A DNA stretch of 64,000 bases from Cocleimonas flava (GTDB lineage: Bacteria > Pseudomonadota > Gammaproteobacteria > Thiotrichales > Thiotrichaceae): the NCBI RefSeq assembly GCF_004339015.1, contig NZ_SMFQ01000003.1, positions 744,001 through 808,000 on the forward strand, in the 5' to 3' direction. Position numbers and translations under genes: made by a program. A model generated the notes under the pieces. It had not been told where the DNA came from, did not search any database, and saw nothing but the letters and a program-made list of their open reading frames with translations. Numbering within the stretch: the first letter of the stretch is position 1; each line of letters starts with the position of its first letter. Of the stretch, positions 43,521 to 61,009 are shown in pieces.

Positions 43521-45371
43521 CTATTTCAATAAAGCCTTCAATTCATCGCTGGCTGTCTTTTTATCCTTGATTCTTTGATACGCGGTTTTGCCGGTTTTAT
43601 CCTTGAGCGATTTATCAGCGCCCAACACCAGTAATATTTTTGATTTACTCAAGGCATCTTTCATACCGTGACTGGCTTCATGCATCAGTGGCGTTACTCC
43701 CCTATCATCCTGCGCATTGACGTCTGCGCCTAATTTAACCAACTCTTTAATGAATGTTTCATCATTTTTCGCAATGGATAAGGACGACATGCCATCGTCA
43801 CACACGATATTGATATCTGCACCGAGAGCCGCAAGTTTCTGCACACCAACGAGATCACCGTATTTGGCCGCGTAAAATACCGGATTACAACCATCTTTAA
43901 TGGTTTTGCCATCCAGTGTTTTGAGCGCATCAAGATTTACTTTTAACTTTTTCCCCAGGTCGATACCTGATATCCCTGCATCATTCTTAATTGTGGGGTC
44001 AGCCCCATTTTGCATCAGAAGACCAATGAGGTAACTGTTATACATTCTGAAAGCGGCATGCAGTGGCGTATTACCTTTTGCCCCTTTAGCATTCACATCA
44101 AAGCCTTTATCCAATAAATAACGAATGATATTCGGATTTTCACCCATAGTTGCAGCCAGTAAAAGGTTACTGCCATCTTTGGCTTTATGTTGCAGATTGC
44201 CACCTTTGGTGACGAGTGTTTCAAAGAAGGCTTGATCGCCTTTCGCGACAGCGATGAATAGCGGACTCATACCATCTTTCGCGGTCATATTTACATCAGA
44301 CCCTTTTTCAACATACTGTTTAATCTTGACCAGATTGCCTTTGAAGATGGCTTTTTTATAATCTTCGTCACCCATCACGATACCGAAATCTTCAGGTTGA
44401 CCGACGATCTCAAAATTCTTCGCATAACGTTTACAGCTGGCTTGTAGCTTCTTCTTTTTCACATTAGCCTGACACTTTTTCAAAGCTTCGCTATCGGCTA
44501 AATCTGGTGAGAATGCCCCTTCTGCTCGACCACATGCCTGCTTACCTGATTTATCATTGGCTAAGTAAAAGGCTTGATGCTGACTTCCGCGTAAATAGTA
44601 TTTAAATTGAAACAGGCACGGGCCTTCGTTAATGATTTCTCTGCCCTTATTCAGATACTCACTGTATTCACTACTGCTTAAATATTTGTCTGATTTGGGG
44701 ACAAGATTCAAACCAAAATCATCCGCACTTAGAAGAATCTGTTTGTTTTCCGCATACACTTTACACGCACTTTTAGGTGCATTTTTACCGCGTTTTGATT
44801 TGTTGGTATTACAGGCTTTAAGTGCGCTTTGTGTTACCGATTGCAAATTATCACCGAAACTTTTTCCACAGGCGTATTTACCATCAGCATCAAGGCTGTA
44901 TGTAAATACTCTGTGCTCTTTATCTTTTAAGTGAGTTTCATAAAAAGGTAGACAATTACCCAGAACGAGTTTCTTTGCTTCAGCCATTAGCGCTTCTTTT
45001 TGCGAGTCGCTCAGCGGTGTATTGTCGGCTGGGGTAATCTGTGAGAAATCACCCTCTTTCACCAGGTAAGTGCCATCGGCATCAACCACCAAACATTCCG
45101 CATTTAATTGGTGTTTGGCACAGGATTTGATCGCTTCCCTTTTTGCAGTTTCAACGTCTTTAGCGCCGTAATGCCATTGGCATCGATCCTTGCCCGTCTT
45201 TTCTTCTCTCACATAAACAAAGGCTTTATGTTGTTTCAGGTTTTTATACTGTGTCTGATAAGCATTGAGGCAGCTCTTGTTCAAAATACGCTCAGGAGCC
45301 GGAACCGCCCAGCTTAAAGCGGGAAATAATAGGATCAAAACAAGCAGTTTATTAAGCATATTCAAAATCAT
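43521..45371 (-). CDS. Exported ankyrin-repeat protein with three N-terminal Cys-rich modules
   Basis: Predicted periplasmic protein of 616 aa. A signal peptide (MLNKLLVLILLFPALSWAVP) is followed by three homologous modules of about 70 residues (about 30-105, 135-210 and 255-325), each with an HKAF- or HRVF-like start, a central C.WHYGA/CGKSFG/CGRAEG motif and paired Cys. Ankyrin repeats follow (about 340-610; for example DGMSPLFIAVAKGDQAFFETLVTKGGN, GNTPLHAAF and RGVTPLMHEAS). The modules resemble DUF4189-type domains only loosely. It probably mediates protein interaction in the periplasm; the partner is unknown. Confidence 0.8.
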   Translation of the reverse strand: MILNMLNKLLVLILLFPALSWAVPAPERILNKSCLNAYQTQYKNLKQHKAFVYVREEKTGKDRCQWHYGAKDVETAKREAIKSCAKHQLNAECLVVDADGTYLVKEGDFSQITPADNTPLSDSQKEALMAEAKKLVLGNCLPFYETHLKDKEHRVFTYSLDADGKYACGKSFGDNLQSVTQSALKACNTNKSKRGKNAPKSACKVYAENKQILLSADDFGLNLVPKSDKYLSSSEYSEYLNKGREIINEGPCLFQFKYYLRGSQHQAFYLANDKSGKQACGRAEGAFSPDLADSEALKKCQANVKKKKLQASCKRYAKNFEIVGQPEDFGIVMGDEDYKKAIFKGNLVKIKQYVEKGSDVNMTAKDGMSPLFIAVAKGDQAFFETLVTKGGNLQHKAKDGSNLLLAATMGENPNIIRYLLDKGFDVNAKGAKGNTPLHAAFRMYNSYLIGLLMQNGADPTIKNDAGISGIDLGKKLKVNLDALKTLDGKTIKDGCNPVFYAAKYGDLVGVQKLAALGADINIVCDDGMSSLSIAKNDETFIKELVKLGADVNAQDDRGVTPLMHEASHGMKDALSKSKILLVLGADKSLKDKTGKTAYQRIKDKKTASDELKALLK

Positions 45372-45809: not shown

Positions 45810-46319
45810 ATGTTCAGTTACAGTTTATTATCTGCAGCAGCAGTGCCTACCTTAAGCGGTATCATGTTATTTATACTTAGCTTATCGCTATTTTTTGTAG
45901 CTTTTAAGGTATCAAAACAAAAAAGTGCGAATACCGGAAAATTTTTTATCACACTCATCGGAGTTGGCGCACTAGTGTCAGGTATGGGTGGTGTTAAATT
46001 AGTTACTGATGCGGAAGCTATTGTATTTATTGATGAACTTCCTTTAGTTGGATCAAAAGGCCAAGTTCAACTACAAAATCTTGATGGACTAAATACGTTC
46101 CAAAACCTAGATAATTCACAAAGAACGTTAGTCGCAGGAGCACTTACTAATCCTGTAGGATCAACGTGCACAGCCATAGCGCGCACTAGGGTTCAAAAAA
46201 TAACAGCAGCAGCTCCACCGGAAGCAGTCATTAATAGCGATCCTGCCTGTACTGAAGGCACGCATATTACTTTTAAAGCTGTGTGTTATTTTGATTGCGT
46301 ACTTGATAATCCATTATAA
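45810..46319 (+). CDS. Small VPTLS-motif membrane protein A
   Basis: Protein of 169 aa, function unknown. The N-terminus FSYSLLSAAAVPTLSG is followed by a membrane helix (about 17-35), a basic patch KVSKQKSANTGK, a second hydrophobic segment (FITLIGVGALVSGMGGVKLV) and a C-terminal domain with Cys pairs. The VPTLS-helix-basic order resembles the IPTL-type signal recognised by exosortase H, here near the N-terminus as in the midcut-by-XrtH idea (from memory). AGGGAGA precedes the ATG. It has a tandem paralogue 35 bp downstream. Confidence 0.6.
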   Translation: MFSYSLLSAAAVPTLSGIMLFILSLSLFFVAFKVSKQKSANTGKFFITLIGVGALVSGMGGVKLVTDAEAIVFIDELPLVGSKGQVQLQNLDGLNTFQNLDNSQRTLVAGALTNPVGSTCTAIARTRVQKITAAAPPEAVINSDPACTEGTHITFKAVCYFDCVLDNPL

Positions 46320-46354
46320 ATATAAACATGATCTTTTAAAATAGGGAGAAAAAG

Positions 46355-46870
46355 ATGTTCAATTACAGTTTATTAAATGCAGCAGCAGTACCAACCTTAA
46401 GCGGTATGATGTTATTTATACTTAGCTTATTGTTATTTTTTGTAGCTTTTAAAGTATCAAAACAAAAAAGCGCGAATACCGGAAAATTCTTTATAACACT
46501 CATCGGAGTTGGCGCACTTGTGTCAGGCATGGGCGGTGTTAAATTAATATCAGATGTATCAGCAGTCGGCTATGCTTCTCTTCCTATAGTTGGATCAAAA
46601 GGTTCAGTTACTCTTAACCCCAATGGAACAAGTATATTTCAAAATCAAGACGGGGCACAAAGAACATTAGTCGCAGGCAAAATTGATAAGAGCGTATTTC
46701 CTGAAGGTACATTTTGCAAGTCCATATTACAAGGTGTATCGCCTATTACGAATGATTCGTTTAATTATAACCCGTGCAATGAAGGTGACCCAATACCTTA
46801 TGAGGCAATTTGTAGATTTGAATGCGCATTCTCTGACCCCTCTGACGTCGCTGACATCTCTGACGACTAA
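46355..46870 (+). CDS. Small VPTLS-motif membrane protein B
   Basis: Paralogue of the preceding gene, 171 aa. Residues 1-70 are almost identical to protein A, including VPTLSG, KVSKQKSANTGK and FITLIGVGALVSGMGGVKL. The C-terminal domain has drifted, but keeps SIFQNQDGAQRTLVAGK and several Cys. An 18-bp leader with AGGGAGA is also duplicated. It looks like a recent tandem duplication with a conserved anchor and a diversifying exported domain. Confidence 0.6.
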   Translation: MFNYSLLNAAAVPTLSGMMLFILSLLLFFVAFKVSKQKSANTGKFFITLIGVGALVSGMGGVKLISDVSAVGYASLPIVGSKGSVTLNPNGTSIFQNQDGAQRTLVAGKIDKSVFPEGTFCKSILQGVSPITNDSFNYNPCNEGDPIPYEAICRFECAFSDPSDVADISDD

Positions 46871-49845: not shown

Positions 49846-50328
49846 TTATTTGCTGTTATAAGCTTTAGAAACTGCATAACTATTTTCAAGCCAGTTCCAG
49901 CTTTTCACTTTGCCATCTTTAACATGCACCCGAACAGCCCAGGTGAATTTTCCGGTATCGACGCCAGAATTATTCGCGATTGCGCTCATGGTACCCATGA
50001 ACATCGCCTGATCAGCTTTTGAGAAACTGTAATCGGTACTCCAGCTTGTTACTTTTAAACCTGCGCCGAATGCCGGCATAAATGTCCCCATCACTGTTTC
50101 TTTGCCTTCCCAGTTTCCAATCCACGGGATGTTTGGATCACCTTCGTTGTGCCAGACGAAATCATCACTCATTAATTCATTGAGCGTCTTTCCATCACCA
50201 CTTCCTGCTGCATTCAAAAATGATTGAGCAACCGCAAGTGTTTTATCGGATTGTTCATCGGCGTAAGCCACTCCTGCCACATTCGTTAACATCAACCCTG
50301 CTAGTAATACTGAATAAATATATTTCAT
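49846..50328 (-). CDS. Exported SnoaL/NTF2-like protein A
   Basis: Secreted small protein of 160 aa with a signal peptide (MKYIYSVLLAGLMLTNVAGVAYA) and an NTF2-like domain: MSDDFVWHNEGDPNIPWIGNWEGKE, then WAVRVHVKDGKVKSWNWLEN. AAGGAG lies before the ATG at 50328, so the longer frame from 50385 is rejected. Relatives include nuclear-transport-factor-2-like and SnoaL cyclases; no activity can be assigned. It neighbours a second such protein on the same strand. Confidence 0.78.
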   Translation of the reverse strand: MKYIYSVLLAGLMLTNVAGVAYADEQSDKTLAVAQSFLNAAGSGDGKTLNELMSDDFVWHNEGDPNIPWIGNWEGKETVMGTFMPAFGAGLKVTSWSTDYSFSKADQAMFMGTMSAIANNSGVDTGKFTWAVRVHVKDGKVKSWNWLENSYAVSKAYNSK

Positions 50329-50421
50329 CGGTGTAACTCCTTCTATCTCTTTAAATTTGGGTTGATCGTTGATGAAAACACCCAACCCTTGTTGCCTTTA
50401 ATCTGCTGATTACGTGACTTT

Positions 50422-50913
50422 TTACTTACCTTTCAATTGACCAAGCGCACCAGACCAGTCTTCAACGTGATAAGTCTTAACGATTTTGCCATTTTCAATG
50501 GTGTGAATATCAATAGTTAAAATATCGAAGCTTTTGCCTTTGCCATCAACTCCAAATAAAGGCCCCGTTGGCGTACCTGTTGCGCGGCTTCTAACGACAA
50601 CGCGATTACCTGATTCGATCATCTCCTGAGGTTCCCATTTAAGGTTTGGGATTAATTTAGAGAAAAAGCCTATCTGACCTAAAAATGCTTCTTTAGATTT
50701 ATTTTTCCCCGAATAGTTTCCAATACTCTCCCAATCATCAGCGATGTGCGTGTTGAAGTTTTTTACGGCTGCGGCTGACCCAGGATTACTTAGAAGATCA
50801 TAAAACGTTTGTGTCGTTGCTTTATTATCAGCAGCTGAAACATTACTCATTGCCATCATTGGAAGCGCAGCAACCATAAGTAATGCAAAAATCTTTTTGA
50901 AAATATTCATCAT
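50422..50913 (-). CDS. Exported SnoaL-like/ester-cyclase-like protein B
   Basis: Protein of 163 aa with a signal peptide (MNIFKKIFALLMVAALPMMAMSNVSA). The NTF2-like core shows FNTHIADDWESIGNY, FLGQIGFFSKLIPNLKWEP, VVVRSRATGTPTGPLFGV and KIVKTYHVEDW, as in SnoaL-like ester cyclases. It lies upstream of its relative A, so they may be co-transcribed. It is divergent from a LysR gene 128 bp away, its likely regulator. Confidence 0.8.
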   Translation of the reverse strand: MMNIFKKIFALLMVAALPMMAMSNVSAADNKATTQTFYDLLSNPGSAAAVKNFNTHIADDWESIGNYSGKNKSKEAFLGQIGFFSKLIPNLKWEPQEMIESGNRVVVRSRATGTPTGPLFGVDGKGKSFDILTIDIHTIENGKIVKTYHVEDWSGALGQLKGK

Positions 50914-51041: not shown

Positions 51042-51923
51042 ATGCTCAATCAACTCAGACAAATCGCCGTGTTTGCCAAAACAGTCGAACACGGCTCATT
51101 CCGTAAAGCGGCGCATGCTTTGAATCTCTCTCCATCTGTGGTCAGTCATCACATTGCTAAATTGGAAGAAGAACTAGGAGTAGCCTTGCTATACCGGTCT
51201 ACCCGTAAACTCTCACTCACCTCCGATGGCGAAGCGCTACTGATTTCAGCGCACGCCATGCTAGAAGCTGCAGAAAGTTTTTTAAATGTTGCCACTAAAC
51301 AGTCGACACAACTTATAGGAAATTTAAGCGTCACACTTCCGGCGGTTTTACAACAATCGGCTTTGGTTAATCACATCGGTTCGTTTGCTAAGTCACATCC
51401 CAATGTCATTCTAGATCTCGATTTTTCTGATTTAACCACCAACCTGATCAATGATGGGGTAGATGTCGCAATCAGAATGGGCTGGTTACAAGACAGTGGA
51501 CTCAAAGCGCGAAAACTCTATGACGTAGATCGATACGTCGTCGCATCAGCCGACTATCTCAAAACCAAGCCCAATGAAATAACCGTTGAAGAAGTCGAAA
51601 CCTGGGACTGGATGGAGCTTTCCTCGGTTGGCCTTGCGAATCTTTATTCTTTTCCAAATAACCCCAAAAGAGTATTCAGACCCCAATCCAGAATTCGGGT
51701 TAACAGTGCCTACGCCATACATAAACTCGTCTCAAATGATAACGGCATAGCTGCATTGCCAAAGTTTCTGATAAAAGAAGAACTTGAAAGTGGTAAATTA
51801 GTACATGTATTACCAGAAATAGAAATTAAATCTGTCGGTGTTTATGCGGTGTGGCCGCCGAATGCGCCCAAGGGAGGTTTGACGAGTCGTTTTGTAGAAC
51901 ACTTAAAACAGAATATACAATAG
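51042..51923 (+). CDS. LysR-family transcription regulator
   Basis: Regulator of 293 aa. The N-terminal HTH reads MLNQLRQIAVFAKTVEHGSFRKAAHALNLSPSVVSHHIAKLE and is followed by the effector domain (LSVTLPAVLQQSALVNHI onward). It is divergent from the SnoaL-like pair, the usual target arrangement. The inducer is unknown. Start and length are standard. Confidence 0.92.
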   Translation: MLNQLRQIAVFAKTVEHGSFRKAAHALNLSPSVVSHHIAKLEEELGVALLYRSTRKLSLTSDGEALLISAHAMLEAAESFLNVATKQSTQLIGNLSVTLPAVLQQSALVNHIGSFAKSHPNVILDLDFSDLTTNLINDGVDVAIRMGWLQDSGLKARKLYDVDRYVVASADYLKTKPNEITVEEVETWDWMELSSVGLANLYSFPNNPKRVFRPQSRIRVNSAYAIHKLVSNDNGIAALPKFLIKEELESGKLVHVLPEIEIKSVGVYAVWPPNAPKGGLTSRFVEHLKQNIQ

Positions 51924-53017: not shown

Positions 53018-53103
53018 TTTAAGTCAAAAGATTGGATGATTCAACTGAAAATCCGCGAAAAGTACCAGAACAGCCGTGTTCAGTCTCTATATAAACTCCT
53101 GCA

Positions 53104-53135
53104 TTAATTCATCATATCCCCATAGCATGAATTAA
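53104..53135 (+). promoter_or_regulatory. Inverted repeat before the OsmC-like gene
   Basis: TTAATTCAT and ATGAATTAA form a perfect 9-bp inverted repeat with a 14-nt spacer, 26 bp before the start codon. It could be an operator of the upstream AraC protein or a leader hairpin. Confidence 0.4.
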
Positions 53136-53160
53136 CCATTAGCATTCAAGGAGAGAACCA

Positions 53161-54453
53161 ATGAAAACTCAACTAAGTACTTTATCAATACTAACCACAC
53201 TTCTTATTTCAGGAAGTGCCGTTTATGCAGATACTGACACAAGGCAAGATTCAAAAACGTATAAAATCGCAACACGATTAAGTGACTATACGCGCCCAAT
53301 AACGTTTACCCCGACAAAAGCCATAGCAGTCAACGGTGCAATTACCGAAAATATTGTTACCACCACTCAAAACATATTTAACAAAGAGGCTCTTTTCCTC
53401 AAGAAAGGAATAGTGAAGCCTGTAGGTGAAGACCAATTCAGTGCATGGGAACTTGTCAGTGACGAAGGTGGTACTGATCATGATCAAACGGCACCAAACC
53501 CTTTAACCTATTATACGGCAGGTTCAGCCTCAAGTTTATTAACCCAAATTGAAAGAAGCATAAAAATATTAGGTCTGGATGTTGAGGATGTAAAAATAGA
53601 ATCAAAAATATTTTTTAGATTCGATGATCCCATGACAAAAAAATGGTCTGGCTACACGGATAAAGTCATCTCTAATATTCTCATTAAAAGTAATGAGCCA
53701 CCCGAAAAAATAACAGCATTAAAAGAAATGGCTCTTAAAGCCTGGGCTGTGGGTGAAGGACTGGCAAACAAAACCACTATCGATGCTGCAATAGTCATCA
53801 ATTCAGATAATTGGTCAGGAATGACAGTTCATGCAGGAAAAGTAGAATCCCCTATTTCTATCGACAATGGTTTTACCCTCACCAATGTCACACCTGATTT
53901 AAAATTTGAAACAATGGACATTGAAGAAGATCTTGCTTTTGGCATGATGAATATGCCGAACCCTATGATATTCCCAGAAATTGCCATTGCCGAATCTGCA
54001 AATGATGCAGGCAGACCCTATATGCACAAGATCAGAGCTAAATCATTAACCCAAAATTATCAAACCTGGGAGCTTTATTCTGATGACAGCCGTGGATATT
54101 CTGGAATGGATAAAGCCCCTACCTCAAGAGACTATTTCACCGTAGGCACATCCTTTTGCTTAATGAGTCAACTTGCAATAAATAAAATGCTCTTCCAGAA
54201 ACAAGGCGTCGAGATTAAAAATTACCGGGTAGAACACCAATTTAATTATCAGCAAGATAATTTTATGACACCCACAATGACGGGACATCTGGATGATGTA
54301 ATTACCAGAGTCATAGTCACCAGCGACGCTCCAGAAGAAGCGGTAAATAATTATGCCAAACAATCTCTTCGTATGTGTTTTGCAGGAGAAGGAATTCAAA
54401 ATGAAACTGAAATGGAAACCAATATTTACCTCAACGGAAAGATCGTAAAGTAA
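53161..54453 (+). CDS. Exported protein with two tandem OsmC-like domains
   Basis: Secreted protein of 430 aa. A signal peptide ends near GSAVYA. The two halves (about 30-215 and 280-425) are homologous: each has a helix-starting TAGSASSLLTQI or TVGTSFCLMSQL, and ends with LKAWAVGEGLANKTTIDAAIVIN or LRMCFAGEGIQNETEMETNIYLN. Spacing and pattern resemble the OsmC/Ohr fold. The Cys expected in those helices are Ser/Trp in half 1 but Cys in half 2 (FCLM, MCFA), so only half 2 might be redox active. I have no named family; the OsmC assignment is inference. Confidence 0.6.
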   Translation: MKTQLSTLSILTTLLISGSAVYADTDTRQDSKTYKIATRLSDYTRPITFTPTKAIAVNGAITENIVTTTQNIFNKEALFLKKGIVKPVGEDQFSAWELVSDEGGTDHDQTAPNPLTYYTAGSASSLLTQIERSIKILGLDVEDVKIESKIFFRFDDPMTKKWSGYTDKVISNILIKSNEPPEKITALKEMALKAWAVGEGLANKTTIDAAIVINSDNWSGMTVHAGKVESPISIDNGFTLTNVTPDLKFETMDIEEDLAFGMMNMPNPMIFPEIAIAESANDAGRPYMHKIRAKSLTQNYQTWELYSDDSRGYSGMDKAPTSRDYFTVGTSFCLMSQLAINKMLFQKQGVEIKNYRVEHQFNYQQDNFMTPTMTGHLDDVITRVIVTSDAPEEAVNNYAKQSLRMCFAGEGIQNETEMETNIYLNGKIVK

Positions 54454-54521
54454 GACAAAACACCCTGTTGAAAGACCCTTTCAACAGGGGTAATTATCAA
54501 ATGAGATAAAGGAACATAGAA

Positions 54522-55562
54522 ATGAAACAGCTAAAAAAACTACTGCCCGCTAATGTCAAAAATACATTGAGCGTATGTTTTGCCACAGTTATTTTAACCT
54601 TAAGCGGAGTAGCGACAGCCGAAAGTACGTTTGATACACAGGCCGTAAAAGACAAATACAGTGTTAGAGATTATGTTTATGCGCCAATGCCTGAGCGCGG
54701 CTACAACTATTATGAAATTGCCAAAGATACCTATTTCGTTCATGACGAATTCGAACACATGGTCTTTTTTGTCACTGACGACGGTGTAGTTGTTTATGAC
54801 CCCAAGCCTGATGTATCGCCATTTGTGCTCAAGGTGATTCCTCAAGTCACGGACAAACCCATCACACATGTAATTTACTCACACCATCATCGTGATCATT
54901 CACAAGGGGCTTATCTTTTTCCGGAGTCAGCTGAGTTGATTGCCAATGAACGAACCACCAAATTTCTGGCAATTGCAAAAGACCCAAAACGTCCTATGCC
55001 TGACACAACCTGGTCGGACAGTTATGTACTGGAAACTGGCGGCCTCCGACTTGAATTCAAAGATTTAGGACGGAACTGGCATTCTCAAGACGACACCATC
55101 ATGTATGCACCGCAGCAAAAGATCTTGTTTGCTACTGATATGTTCCACGCTGATGCGGCTCCCTGGATCCATTTTGGTGAATCTTCCGACCCAATGTTCG
55201 CCTTTATGTTGCCCGGCATATTATTAGATACTTATGATTTTGAGTTTGTTATTCCCGGTCATGAACGCATTGTACCCACTCGTGCTCACATGGAGACCTA
55301 TAAAGCGTTGATAGCGGATATGCAAAAGATTCTATTTGAGGTTGTAAAATCCCCTGCATTCCAGAAAAGCGCTGAAGAAGCAGCCAAACGTTATAAAGAT
55401 GGTCAAGACCACTGGGAATACAAAGAAAGTATCATGACAGCGTCAAATCTGTGCGCGAGTAAGTTTATCGAAAATTGGGCTGGGCGCGTACGTAATGCCA
55501 ACTTGAATGCCGTGGAAAACTGCCAAACCATGTTTATGCATCAGATTATTCTTGATCCATAA
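54522..55562 (+). CDS. Exported metallo-beta-lactamase-fold hydrolase
   Basis: MBL-fold protein of 346 aa with a signal peptide (ending SGVATA). The zinc motif HHHRDHSQGA (HxHxDH) lies at about residues 128-137, followed by NWHSQDDT, ATDMFHADA and PGHERIVPT, supplying the later ligands. No lactamase activity is implied; relatives include quinoprotein-linked MBL and lactonase-like enzymes. It lies 68 bp after the OsmC-like gene, with which it probably forms an operon. Confidence 0.88.
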   Translation: MKQLKKLLPANVKNTLSVCFATVILTLSGVATAESTFDTQAVKDKYSVRDYVYAPMPERGYNYYEIAKDTYFVHDEFEHMVFFVTDDGVVVYDPKPDVSPFVLKVIPQVTDKPITHVIYSHHHRDHSQGAYLFPESAELIANERTTKFLAIAKDPKRPMPDTTWSDSYVLETGGLRLEFKDLGRNWHSQDDTIMYAPQQKILFATDMFHADAAPWIHFGESSDPMFAFMLPGILLDTYDFEFVIPGHERIVPTRAHMETYKALIADMQKILFEVVKSPAFQKSAEEAAKRYKDGQDHWEYKESIMTASNLCASKFIENWAGRVRNANLNAVENCQTMFMHQIILDP

Positions 55563-55628: not shown

Positions 55629-55684
55629 ATTTTCATGAGAAACAAGCTATGAGTGACATACCACTAAATTAGCAAACATCCAAT

Positions 55685-55854
55685 TAATGGACAGGTGACC
55701 GAGAAAAAGGCGAGGTTCGAATTGACGACTTACCCTTACTGCCCACTAGTTCACCACATGATGCCGACCGATTTTGTCCAGTTGATATTGAGCCAATTAT
55801 TAAAACCGCAAAATCATCAATGAACTGCAATAAATATAATTATCGAAGATATTA
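55685..55854 (+). pseudogene. Possible decayed ORF remnant
   Basis: A frame from about 55685 reads 55 sense codons (WTGDREKGEVRIDDLPLLPT... to NYRRY) without a start codon and with the preceding ATG frame stopping early. It looks more like coding than spacer but has no recognised family. The rest of the gap to 55893 is empty. Confidence 0.25.
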
Positions 55855-55893
55855 AACACTGTTACTAACACCTAAAATATGGAAGAGAAAACC

Positions 55894-56235
55894 ATGCCTA
55901 GAAAATTTTTTGCAGTAGCCTTGCTTGTCTCATTTATAGCAATGTCTACATCAGGGTTGATGATGTTTTTCATTGAAAAACCATCGTTTACCATTCAAAT
56001 GCACCCAGTACATAAACTCTTCGGACTGGTTATGATCATCTCGGTGATTGGCCATCTAAGTTTTAACTATCGATCTCTATTAACTTATTTGAAGACGAAA
56101 ACAATCGCAATATTCGGCAGTGTATTGGTATTTCTACTGGTATTTCTCTACGGTGTAGCGATCAACAATAAAGTACCCGACAATATTGCGATACCGATGG
56201 ATGAACTGGCAGGTCAGGCTGAGTCACACGAGTAA
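55894..56235 (+). CDS. Small DUF4405-like membrane protein
   Basis: Membrane protein of 113 aa with three hydrophobic segments (about 5-26, 40-60 and 73-92). MHPVHKLFGLVMIISVIGHLSFNY carries several His within helices, as in the cytochrome-b-like DUF4405 family, so haem binding is possible. An ATG at 55879 is also in frame, but GGAAGAG lies upstream of the ATG at 55894. It may belong to the AraC-linked group; that is inference. Confidence 0.7.
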   Translation: MPRKFFAVALLVSFIAMSTSGLMMFFIEKPSFTIQMHPVHKLFGLVMIISVIGHLSFNYRSLLTYLKTKTIAIFGSVLVFLLVFLYGVAINNKVPDNIAIPMDELAGQAESHE

Positions 56236-57909: not shown

Positions 57910-58539
57910 ATAGATAACTTACTAAGCCGATCAGCTGAATTTGAGAAAGAGATGATTCGCATCTTTATGCAAGATGCTTATGATAATTCAGACAGAATTC
58001 GCATAAGTAAAATTATGTGTAGCGTTGCTTTCGAGCATGCTGAAAGTCTCAAAATATTATTAGCATCACATAATTTCACATCAGCAGTGGGAATACTTCG
58101 TATTCAATTCGAATCCTATGTTCGAGGAGTATGGGTGCTTTATGCAGCATCAGATACTGAGCTAAGTAAACTAACCGCCGAGCTAAATAATGAGAACGCT
58201 AAACGCGCAGAAAGATTGCCAATGCTAAGCGCAATGATTAACAAGTTAGAATCTAAAGCACCTGAGAATGCGATTTCTCCAATACTTGAGTTTAAAAAGT
58301 ATTCATGGGGGCCATTGAACTCCTATTTGCATGGAGGTCTTCATGCTATTGATCGACATAGTAAAGGTTACCCTGTCGGTATACTTGAGCAAGCACTGAA
58401 AGCGTCAAATGGTGTTAATGGAATGGTAGGAATGTTTGCTGCTGTTCTTACTGGAAGACAAGATTTAGTTAAAGAAGTATCAGAAATATACAAATCGTAT
58501 TCAGACTGTTTTCAGATGAAAGCAGATATGAATTCATAA
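57910..58539 (+). CDS. Hypothetical protein, DUF6988-like
   Basis: Unrecognised with certainty; a helical, probably cytoplasmic protein that resembles DUF6988/abortive-type hypothetical proteins (VAFEHAESLKILLASHNFTSAVGILRIQFESYVRGVWVLYAA; LNSYLHGGLHAI). An ATG at 57952 gives 195 aa. The frame continues upstream as convincing protein sequence (DNLLSRSAEFEKE) to an ATA at 57910 with GAGGA 8 nt before it. That suggests a mutated ATG or a rare start (209 aa). It lies between the two duplicated repeat units, like a cassette. Confidence 0.6.
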   Translation: MDNLLSRSAEFEKEMIRIFMQDAYDNSDRIRISKIMCSVAFEHAESLKILLASHNFTSAVGILRIQFESYVRGVWVLYAASDTELSKLTAELNNENAKRAERLPMLSAMINKLESKAPENAISPILEFKKYSWGPLNSYLHGGLHAIDRHSKGYPVGILEQALKASNGVNGMVGMFAAVLTGRQDLVKEVSEIYKSYSDCFQMKADMNS

Positions 58540-58596
58540 TAAAGCATCGATACAGATAAGCTATTAAACCTAAATCCAAACAATAATCTTAATATA

Positions 58597-58625
58597 GTCA
58601 CCCCCCTACTTACAGGCACTTTTTT
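58597..58625 (+). repeat. C6/G6 dispersed repeat, unit 21
   Basis: Forward copy (GTCACCCCCCTACTTACAGGC, ACT6) opening the second duplicated unit, 57 bp after the hypothetical gene. Confidence 0.92.
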
Positions 58626-58808
58626 AAAATCTAGCGATGTTGTTTAACCCCCTTTCAAACAAGCCGAGCGACACGGCTAATTGGCGATTATGGTTTTAGC
58701 TGTTTGAGCGACTATAGGAGCGAGTTCTAAAACCGCGTCAATTCGCTGTGTCGTGAGGGAACCGCTTGCGGCTTTTTTGTGGGCAGCCTTTTGTTTGGTT
58801 CGTTTATT
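58626..58808. repeat. Duplicated palindromic unit R1, copy 2
   Basis: Second copy of the 180-bp palindromic unit, with the palindrome from AAGCCG (58661) to CGGCTT (58774). The apex sequence differs from copy 1 while the stem is largely kept. Its first 25 bp recur in degenerate form after unit 23 (61648-61675). Confidence 0.85.
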
Positions 58809-58926
58809 TTGGCTGAGCAAAATAAATGAACTCGTAGCCGATAACTAAATATTCGAGGAGAAGAAACAAATCACCAAGCTACGAAAAAATTACTCGGTGA
58901 TAGATAACAGATTTAAATCAGGTAAA
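58809..58926. repeat. Duplicated unit R2, copy 2
   Basis: Second copy of the 118-bp unit, uninterrupted here and following R1 directly. It is followed by a truncated C6/G6 repeat. Confidence 0.85.
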
Positions 58927-58943
58927 GTCACCCCCTACTTATG
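58927..58943 (+). repeat. C6/G6 dispersed repeat, unit 22 (truncated)
   Basis: GTCACCCCCTACTTATG with five C and no T-run; it ends the second duplicated unit. Confidence 0.7.
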
Positions 58944-59100
58944 TAATAAATGAACATATAGAACCAATGATTAGGTAACAAGAATCTGGCATAATAACTA
59001 AAACTTATTCGGTTTATTTGAAAAATACAAAAACCGAAAAAAAGTAGGGAAGAGTCCCTATTTTCCTGTATTTAAAACAGATAGAAAGTTAAAAACACCT

Positions 59101-59205
59101 ATTTAACAGTAACTTAAGGATTCGTTTCAAATTGATAAAATAACTAGAAGGATTCCATATATTACTATTAAGAGGGATTTAATCCTTCTTTAAAGACCGT
59201 TAGAT
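59101..59205 (+). other. Possible attC-like site upstream of the OLD gene
   Basis: ATTTAAC (59101-59107, RYYYAAC) and GTTAGAT (59199-59205, GTTRRRY) bracket complementary stretches AACTTAAGGATT and AATCCTTCTTTAAAG. The layout is that of an integron attC site, but the pairing is imperfect. The rest of 58944-59236 is AT-rich spacer. Confidence 0.3.
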
Positions 59206-59236
59206 TCCTCAGAGTAATTGAAGTCAGGAGTAAGTT

Positions 59237-61009
59237 TTGAAAATCAAGGAAGTACATATTAAAAATTGGAGATCAATTGAATCAGTTAAGCTTGATTATC
59301 AGGATCTGATGATATTTATCGGCCAAAATAATCACGGAAAATCCAACATATTAAGCTCACTTTTGTTTTTCTTTGGAGAGATAAAACCTCAAGAGCTAGA
59401 TTTTCATAATCAATCGGATGAACTATTTGTAGAAGTTGTTTTCTCAAACCTAGATGAAAGCGATCGCTCTACATTCAGCAAATACGTTACATCTGAGGGA
59501 GAGATAAAAATCAGGAAGACTGCATATGCCTCCGGTAGTTTTGATTACAAAGGTTATATTCAAAACCCAGTCGAAGAGTGGCTTCAAGAAAGCAATGCTG
59601 GCGCTTATACCGCAAGGGCAACAGCTGAATCTCTACCTTTGGCTGAGTTTCTTCCTGAGGTCGGGAGAATTACACAGGCAAATATTAAGTTCGCTCAATC
59701 GGAATATATTCAGAGAAACATCGACACGGTTTCATTCAATTATGAAATGGAAGATTCCAACTTTTTAGGCTTGAAGAATGTAGCGAAAGGGATATTTGGA
59801 CAGGTATTTCATATACCCGCAATTAGAAGCGCCTCAGATGATTATGTTACTAAGGAGACAAGTGCATTTGGCTCTCTATATTCAAAGTTAATTGAACAAA
59901 TGTCTTCTTCAAACCCTGAATGGATTTCAGCTAAAGATAATATCTCAACTCTTTTTGGTTTGTTAAATAAAACTGATAGTGAAGGAAATCATAACGAAGA
60001 ACGCCCGCCCGAATTATCTGCTTTTGAAGAAAGACTTAGTTCTCACCTTTCATCTTGGGGGGCTGAGATTGACGTAGAAATAGTTGCACCAAATATTGAT
60101 GATGTCTTTAAAGCTAACACTCAGGTATGGATAAATGATGGGGTTAAAACTGATATTAATCGCAAAGGGCACGGATTGCAGCGTGCCTTGAGTTTTGCCT
60201 TAATAAAAACCATAGCTGAAACTCTTCAAGAAGAGCGCGTAGCGGCTGAAGAAGCAGGCGAGACAGCTGGTGCTCGGCGTGCGTCAAATTCAATGTACTT
60301 CATATTGGAAGAGCCCGAACTTTATTTGCACCCACAAGCTCAAAGGGCTTTGTTTCAATCACTAACATCATTGGTCGAGGGAGGTGCGCAAGTATCACTT
60401 TGCACTCATTCAAGTGCATTAATAGATTTAGAGTATTACAAATCAATATGTATTGTCAGAAAAGACCAACCAGAGAGCGGGACCACTATATGTCAATGTA
60501 CCGAGGAAATTTTTACAGGTAATGACAAGAAAGACTTCAATCTTAGCTACTGGGTAAACCCTGACAGGAGCGAATTGTTCTTCGCGCAAAAAGTAATATT
60601 AGTTGAAGGAGCCACCGAAAAGACGGTAATTCCTTACATCGCCCAAAGAATAGATTGCTTCAAGCATCAGTATTCAGTTATTGACTGCGGTTCAAAGAAT
60701 AACATTCCAGCCTATGTTGGTTTGTTAAACAAATTCAATATTCCTTATGTGGCGGTATATGATATTGATCATCAGGCAGGTAAATCACAAGCGGCCATTG
60801 ATTCCGCAGATATTGCAACCCGAGGAATAGAGGATGTTGTTGATAGAAGTTGTGGTTCTACCATCACGTTAGTAAATGATATAGAGGAAGAACTTGGCAT
60901 GGCTCAAGGTGCCGGTAGCAAACCTTATGTTGCTTTGGAAGAAATAAGCAGTGATGACTTTGAGGTTTCGGATCAATTTAAAGACAAAGTCCTAACAATG
61001 TATGAGTAA
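59237..61009 (+). CDS. OLD-family ATPase/TOPRIM nuclease
   Basis: Overcoming-lysogenisation-defect-type protein of 590 aa. The N-terminal ABC-like ATPase has Walker A GQNNHGKS (29-36) and Walker B YFILEEPELYLHP (about 354-366), with THSSALIDL after it. The C-terminal TOPRIM domain has ILVEGATEK (about 454-462) and VYDID (about 507). TTG start with AGGAG 6 nt upstream. The size and order match class 1 OLD nucleases and Gabija GajA. No GajB helicase is adjacent, so a stand-alone phage-defence nuclease is most likely. Confidence 0.88.
   Translation: MKIKEVHIKNWRSIESVKLDYQDLMIFIGQNNHGKSNILSSLLFFFGEIKPQELDFHNQSDELFVEVVFSNLDESDRSTFSKYVTSEGEIKIRKTAYASGSFDYKGYIQNPVEEWLQESNAGAYTARATAESLPLAEFLPEVGRITQANIKFAQSEYIQRNIDTVSFNYEMEDSNFLGLKNVAKGIFGQVFHIPAIRSASDDYVTKETSAFGSLYSKLIEQMSSSNPEWISAKDNISTLFGLLNKTDSEGNHNEERPPELSAFEERLSSHLSSWGAEIDVEIVAPNIDDVFKANTQVWINDGVKTDINRKGHGLQRALSFALIKTIAETLQEERVAAEEAGETAGARRASNSMYFILEEPELYLHPQAQRALFQSLTSLVEGGAQVSLCTHSSALIDLEYYKSICIVRKDQPESGTTICQCTEEIFTGNDKKDFNLSYWVNPDRSELFFAQKVILVEGATEKTVIPYIAQRIDCFKHQYSVIDCGSKNNIPAYVGLLNKFNIPYVAVYDIDHQAGKSQAAIDSADIATRGIEDVVDRSCGSTITLVNDIEEELGMAQGAGSKPYVALEEISSDDFEVSDQFKDKVLTMYE

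Follow-up and report, generated by a model that had tools for sequence, protein, structure and literature searches.

The locus raises the question of how a protein with two OsmC domains in a single, apparently exported chain could work, and with which partners. In the literature, enzymes of the OsmC family are homodimers whose two sites are identical, and our search of it returned no exported or tandem OsmC, although the OsmC of D. radiodurans (DR_1538), described simply as OsmC and not as a tandem, has been reported in the periplasm (PMC7775534). The gene lies in a stretch of 64,000 nucleotides (the window), which is part of contig 2 of a 4.49 Mb Cocleimonas genome, and we refer to its product as OsmC2. 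The closest named relative of the window comes from an uncultured Cocleimonas (locus L010), whose genome (G011/G380) belongs to the same genus. A first-pass annotation, made from the sequence alone, had proposed that OsmC2 and the metallo-hydrolase (MBL) encoded next to it form a periplasmic redox or detoxification pair under an AraC regulator. The features of the locus are collected in Table 1.

Table 1. Features of the OsmC2 locus, in positions of the window.
Feature	Position	Strand	Evidence
AraC-family regulator, cupin-type AraC_binding + HTH_18, 314 aa	52073..53017	+	Pfam
araC-osmC2 intergenic region, carries GAACAgccgTGTTC	53018..53160	.	palindrome test: not significant
OsmC2, exported (predicted) tandem OsmC protein, 430 aa	53161..54453	+	ORF, Pfam, NCBIfam, AF2, Foldseek
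Probable signal peptide, residues 1-23, cleavage VYA↓DT	53161..53229	+	by inspection: hydrophobicity, conservation in relatives
OsmC domain 1, residues 61-213, without Cys	53341..53799	+	alignment, AF2
OsmC domain 2, residues 269-424, both Cys	53965..54432	+	alignment, AF2, profile search
Cys333 codon, motif FCLMSQL, first (peroxidatic) OsmC Cys position	54157..54159	+	alignment, profile search
Cys406 codon, motif RMCFAGEG, second Cys position of OsmC/Ohr	54376..54378	+	alignment, profile search
Hairpin, perfect 12-bp arms, CCCTGTTGAAAG ACC CTTTCAACAGGG, OsmC2/MBL gap	54463..54489	.	sequence
Exported (predicted) MBL-fold hydrolase, 346 aa	54522..55562	+	Lactamase_B, zinc motif, hydrophobic leader
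Pseudogene remnant, single-domain osmC1	55649..55816	+	comparison with intact copies in L010 and L073
DUF4405 protein, small, b-type-cytochrome-like, three hydrophobic segments, conserved His (MHPVHK...GH)	55879..56235	+	Pfam, locus comparison

Both the Pfam OsmC model (E = 1.1e-12) and the NCBIfam model NF041052, "OsmC-related (seleno)protein" (E = 4.2e-39; 133.8 bits against a cut-off of 95), match OsmC2 in two stretches, demonstrating two OsmC domains in one open reading frame. An AF2 model based on a 20-row alignment of close, tandem and single-domain relatives (mean pLDDT 83.8, pTM 0.87) superseded an earlier run with 9 close homologues only, which was too poor to use (pLDDT 48). The model contains the OsmC pattern twice, with long helices at residues 114-137 and 322-347, and all sensible Foldseek matches were OsmC-family structures (3cje at E = 4.8e-5, then 2onf, 6mjn, 1lql, 1vla and 1nye). 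The domains therefore have the fold of the OsmC superfamily, a β-sheet around a long central helix bearing the Cys, in agreement with the first-pass assignment. The pTM of the model further indicates a defined packing of the two domains. The closest solved structure by both sequence and fold, the OsmC-like protein 3cje from Jannaschia, has a single domain, unlike OsmC2.

The cysteine pattern was also read correctly from the sequence: domain 1 contains no Cys, and the whole protein has just two, C333 and C406, both in domain 2. In the alignment, the domain 1 Cys is lost in all OsmC2 relatives, whereas C333 and C406 are invariant, and the same positions are Cys in the aligned single-domain relatives. 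Most mature OsmC2 relatives have no further Cys, and one exported relative (L015) has a single extra one. In a profile search, C333 and C406 line up with the Cys pair of Ohr/OsmC chains. The Glu of the Ohr/OsmC catalytic triad lies ten residues before the first Cys (Glu51/Cys61 numbering; PMC5962072); in the alignment it is absent from OsmC2, which has R323 at this position, and is replaced by Leu in a paralogue (L009, below) and in single-domain relatives. For the Arg19-type catalytic residue, the N-terminal loop of OsmC2 falls outside the stretch aligned to Ohr/OsmC. Since the catalytic Glu is missing, classical hydroperoxidase activity is doubtful, and OsmC2, with the fold and two Cys but no Glu, is therefore a member of the OsmC superfamily that lacks one hallmark of the Ohr/OsmC peroxidases. 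As regards the absent Glu, it appears to resemble YhfA-type OsmC proteins, which have two Cys but neither the catalytic Arg nor the Glu, and the activity and function of which are unknown (PMC8945050, PMC5962072).

OsmC2 shares its fold and two Cys positions with Ohr/OsmC peroxidases of solved structure (1nye, 1lql, 1vla and 6mjn), but these are single-domain homodimers with a Cys-Arg-Glu triad, whereas OsmC2 is fused and has one active site. Its family is that of NF041052, with which it has the Cys positions and the CLMS/T motif in common: C333-LMS of domain 2 fits the Cys-or-Sec CxxT/UxxT position of the model, and domain 1 is without it. The UxxT selenocysteine motif has been reported for this family (PMC1088965), for which we found no function in the literature. 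The closest members that we found are single-domain proteins of ∼200 aa with CLMT or CLMS and no obvious leader, in contrast to the exported tandem predicted here. The family is already known, and the architecture and context of OsmC2 are new.

Two other sets of tandem OsmC proteins were compared with OsmC2. The same genome encodes a probably cytosolic paralogue (L009:8524-9774, at about 896.5 kb of contig 2), which is 49% identical and keeps the Cys pair of the C-terminal domain, but has no leader and lies behind an old-yellow-enzyme (Oxidored_FMN) gene; the sister genome (L068) retains only an N-terminal fragment of ∼80 codons. A gammaproteobacterium (G131) encodes two tandem OsmC proteins (L066:6083-7387, minus strand, and L067:6868-8082, minus strand), one of them near a UbiD-like reading frame. 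In these, too, domain 2 has the core Cys and domain 1 lacks it, but they have no obvious leader, other neighbours and only 16-18% identity to OsmC2. Domains 1 and 2 of the OsmC2 clade were sisters in a tree (support 91/77), and the domains of the G131 tandem paired with each other (83/72). This weakly suggests two independent tandem duplications, with the first site blanked in both; because the tree was flagged for long branches and composition bias, separate duplications are suggestive at most. A single common origin of the tandem proteins is the less likely reading of this tree.

Secretion of the tandem protein, claimed in the first-pass annotation, is probable. The N-terminus is hydrophobic and ends in VYA↓DT, features that full-length relatives share and the L009 paralogue lacks, consistent with export via a signal peptide. 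OsmC2 is under purifying selection, with a dN of 0.028 and a dS of 0.28 relative to its L010 orthologue (dN/dS about 0.10).

The genes on either side were identified as had been proposed. The preceding gene encodes an AraC-family regulator, and the following one an MBL-fold enzyme, predicted to be exported, with a Lactamase_B match (E = 1.8e-7), the zinc motif HHHRDH...H...D...H and a hydrophobic leader; it reaches no NCBIfam beta-lactamase cut-off. In contrast, the proposed pairing did not hold up. The MBL gene is missing beside OsmC2 at all ten other loci (the sister Cocleimonas and nine more), and in L010 a single-domain osmC1 takes its place. The MBL region of the window measures about 1.17 kb and replaces 158 bp of L010. 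At E = 1e-60, the enzyme was detected among 369 Gammaproteobacteria in the window genome only, and the one close relative that we found (L071; 84% identical) belongs to a different genus of the family and to a genome that lacks OsmC2. There, the MBL gene lies directly behind an araC whose product is 67% identical to that of the window. In another genome of the L071 genus, a truncated tandem OsmC is followed by an osmC1 product 77% identical to that of L010. An AraC orthologue (88% identical) precedes the OsmC gene in L010. As AraC accompanies OsmC2 in L010 and MBL in L071, the regulator is tied to each of them, rather than OsmC2 to MBL. We therefore rejected a conserved OsmC2-MBL pair; from locus comparison, MBL appears to be a local occupant of the slot and no conserved partner of OsmC2. 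Thus, of the original proposal, a periplasmic redox role stays plausible and the pairing is lost.

An AraC regulator is found upstream of OsmC2 at 7 of the 11 loci, and that of five Sulfurovaceae loci is a different one, about 28% identical to the regulator of the window. The palindrome noted between araC and osmC2 (GAACAgccgTGTTC, 5-bp arms) was dismissed as an operator: one palindrome was observed against 1.7 expected, 72% of shuffles contained at least one, and the repeat is partly lost in L010. Between OsmC2 and MBL, the hairpin lacks a T run and is a possible terminator or attenuator.

The recurrent neighbour of OsmC2 is instead a DUF4405 gene, which the first-pass annotation had missed together with the ruined osmC1. 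DUF4405/FezC proteins, described only recently, are heme-b cytochromes of the membrane, for which a role in extracytosolic electron transfer has been proposed (PMC11334425). The protein of the window scores 31.2 bits against a Pfam threshold of 26.7, and carries conserved His in its membrane part (His37, 40 and 54 of the 113-aa form) in common with L012, L016 and L077. Among the eleven loci, five have an intact DUF4405 gene just downstream of OsmC2 (the window, L010, L012, L016 and L077) and one a remnant. It is missing beside OsmC2 in L011, L014, L015, L017 and L076, and is thus not indispensable to OsmC2. The remnant belongs to L013 (7294-7700), where decayed AhpD-like and DUF4405 pieces lie behind an intact OsmC2, an erosion like that of the window. 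A gene between OsmC2 and DUF4405 encodes a cytosolic thiol protein at some of these loci: osmC1 in L010, with the order araC-osmC2-osmC1-DUF4405, and CxxC AhpD-like (CMD) proteins in L012 and L077. In the window, the MBL gene sits between osmC2 and the osmC1 remnant. The remnant carries two early stops (codons 8 and 13) and has lost 261 bp in frame, between TGTCC repeats, and with them the AEACLANY Cys region. Two other small genes recur near OsmC2. In two phyla, an ∼80-aa membrane protein with a weak DUF3185 match is encoded between OsmC2 and DUF4405 (L012:7308-7547 and L016:869-1102), and two genomes of the L012 genus have a small exported four-Cys protein without a Pfam match (L077:4131-4388 and L076:7754-8008).

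A scan of genome contigs returned eight close OsmC2 loci (69-94% identical), from Cocleimonas, two Sulfurovum, another Sulfurovaceae, Thiomicrorhabdus, Desulfoplanes, a Desulfuromonadaceae MAG and a Krumholzibacteriia MAG. A search of the genus of L012 added L076 and L077, giving the eleven loci compared here (the window and ten others). The hosts belong mostly to sulfur-cycling genera. Presence is patchy: OsmC2 was detected in 2 of 12 genomes of the window's genus and in 4 of 34 of the L012 genus (Sulfurovum), most of which are without it. In class samples, it occurred in 1 of 298 genomes for L012 and 1 of 244 for L016, each time the genome used as centre, and among 399 sampled Pseudomonadota the tandem match was confined to the window's own genome. 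Identity of ∼70% across four phyla combined with this patchiness points to spread by horizontal transfer. Plasmid or viral carriage was rejected, as no OsmC2 relative was present among 72,556 plasmids or in viral contigs. The OsmC2 gene of L014, from a low-coverage MAG, contains two in-frame TAG codons, most likely due to sequence error or decay.

How, then, could OsmC2 work? With confidence just short of even, we favour a periplasmic OsmC pseudo-dimer with one active site that acts as a thiol redox protein, possibly fed by DUF4405. OsmC/Ohr proteins function as homodimers whose sites lie at the interface (PMC5962072), and we therefore read OsmC2 as their intramolecular counterpart. The two fused units would probably pack against one another as the two chains of the usual homodimer do, resulting in a monomeric pseudo-dimer with a single Cys-bearing site (C333/C406) and domain 1 as structural partner. 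In the periplasm, C333 and C406 would alternate between the dithiol and disulfide states as they reduce a substrate that is oxidised or loaded with sulfur; candidates are organic hydroperoxides, sulfane sulfur and other oxidised thiols. Lipoyl donors are cytosolic. Because a periplasmic OsmC2 would be cut off from lipoyl and AhpD donors in the cytosol, the DUF4405 b-type cytochrome is the best candidate to help supply electrons across the membrane. Against this route, the DUF4405 protein that has been tested has six TM helices and four His, whereas that of the window is half its size with three hydrophobic segments. The AraC regulator would switch the OsmC2 cassette and also MBL, a gene that would have been added locally. 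A more far-reaching version, in which a DUF4405-reduced, single-site OsmC2 and a cytosolic OsmC or AhpD-like partner form a cytochrome-wired periplasmic thiol pathway that spread among sulfur-cycling bacteria by way of a mobile cassette, we consider doubtful. If true, a natural one-site fusion that is exported and cytochrome-linked would offer a way to dissect the mechanism of the OsmC family, indicate how thiol chemistry in the periplasm may be supplied with electrons and give the OsmC-related (seleno)protein family a testable role.

The same evidence allows for other readings of OsmC2. As a periplasmic carrier or reductase of sulfane sulfur (persulfide or polysulfide), it would suit the mostly sulfur-cycling hosts of its close relatives, and ohr expression in P. 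aeruginosa responds to sulfane sulfur (PMC9495516). However, the argument is one of habitat correlation, the gene is carried by just those 4 of 34 Sulfurovum genomes and no sulfur-oxidation enzyme was recognised among the neighbour genes examined, making this a rather doubtful alternative. A classical Ohr/OsmC peroxidase, relocated to the periplasm and reducing lipid or organic hydroperoxides, would account for the fold, both Cys positions and the linkage to OsmC1 or AhpD-like proteins, and has precedents in the periplasmic OsmC of D. radiodurans (PMC7775534) and the regeneration of C. glutamicum OsmC by AhpD (PMC8945050). In OsmC2, however, the triad Glu is not conserved, as in YhfA-type proteins. 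The cytosolic location of lipoyl donors also speaks against such a peroxidase, which we judge unlikely.

Loss of the domain 1 Cys in all relatives and absence of the catalytic Glu would also be expected of a non-catalytic, ligand-binding OsmC fold, such as a lipid or thiol scavenger, but the domain 2 Cys pair is invariant over four phyla in a protein otherwise almost free of Cys, and we regard this function as improbable. Least of all do we expect OsmC2 and MBL to form one detoxification module. Their genes are adjacent, both with leaders and with a single regulator, and the same AraC type stands before MBL in L071, but the two were never together elsewhere, neither at the ten other OsmC2 loci nor in the L071 genome, and a hairpin separates them.

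Further genes of the window were recorded alongside this locus. At 57952-61009 (plus strand), a PDC-S52 family protein (PADLOC E = 3.7e-76) is followed by an OLD/AriA/GajA-type ATPase-Toprim protein, and these genes are candidates for anti-phage defence. Two adjoining SnoaL-like proteins with hydrophobic leaders (49846-50913, minus strand) are encoded divergently from a LysR gene at 51042. Two paralogous 170-aa proteins (45810-46870, plus strand; 60% identical) have sub-threshold matches to midcut-by-XrtH (NF033207). Finally, a 616-aa protein with a leader (43521-45371, minus strand) has sub-threshold matches to ankyrin-repeat models and probably consists just of ankyrin repeats.
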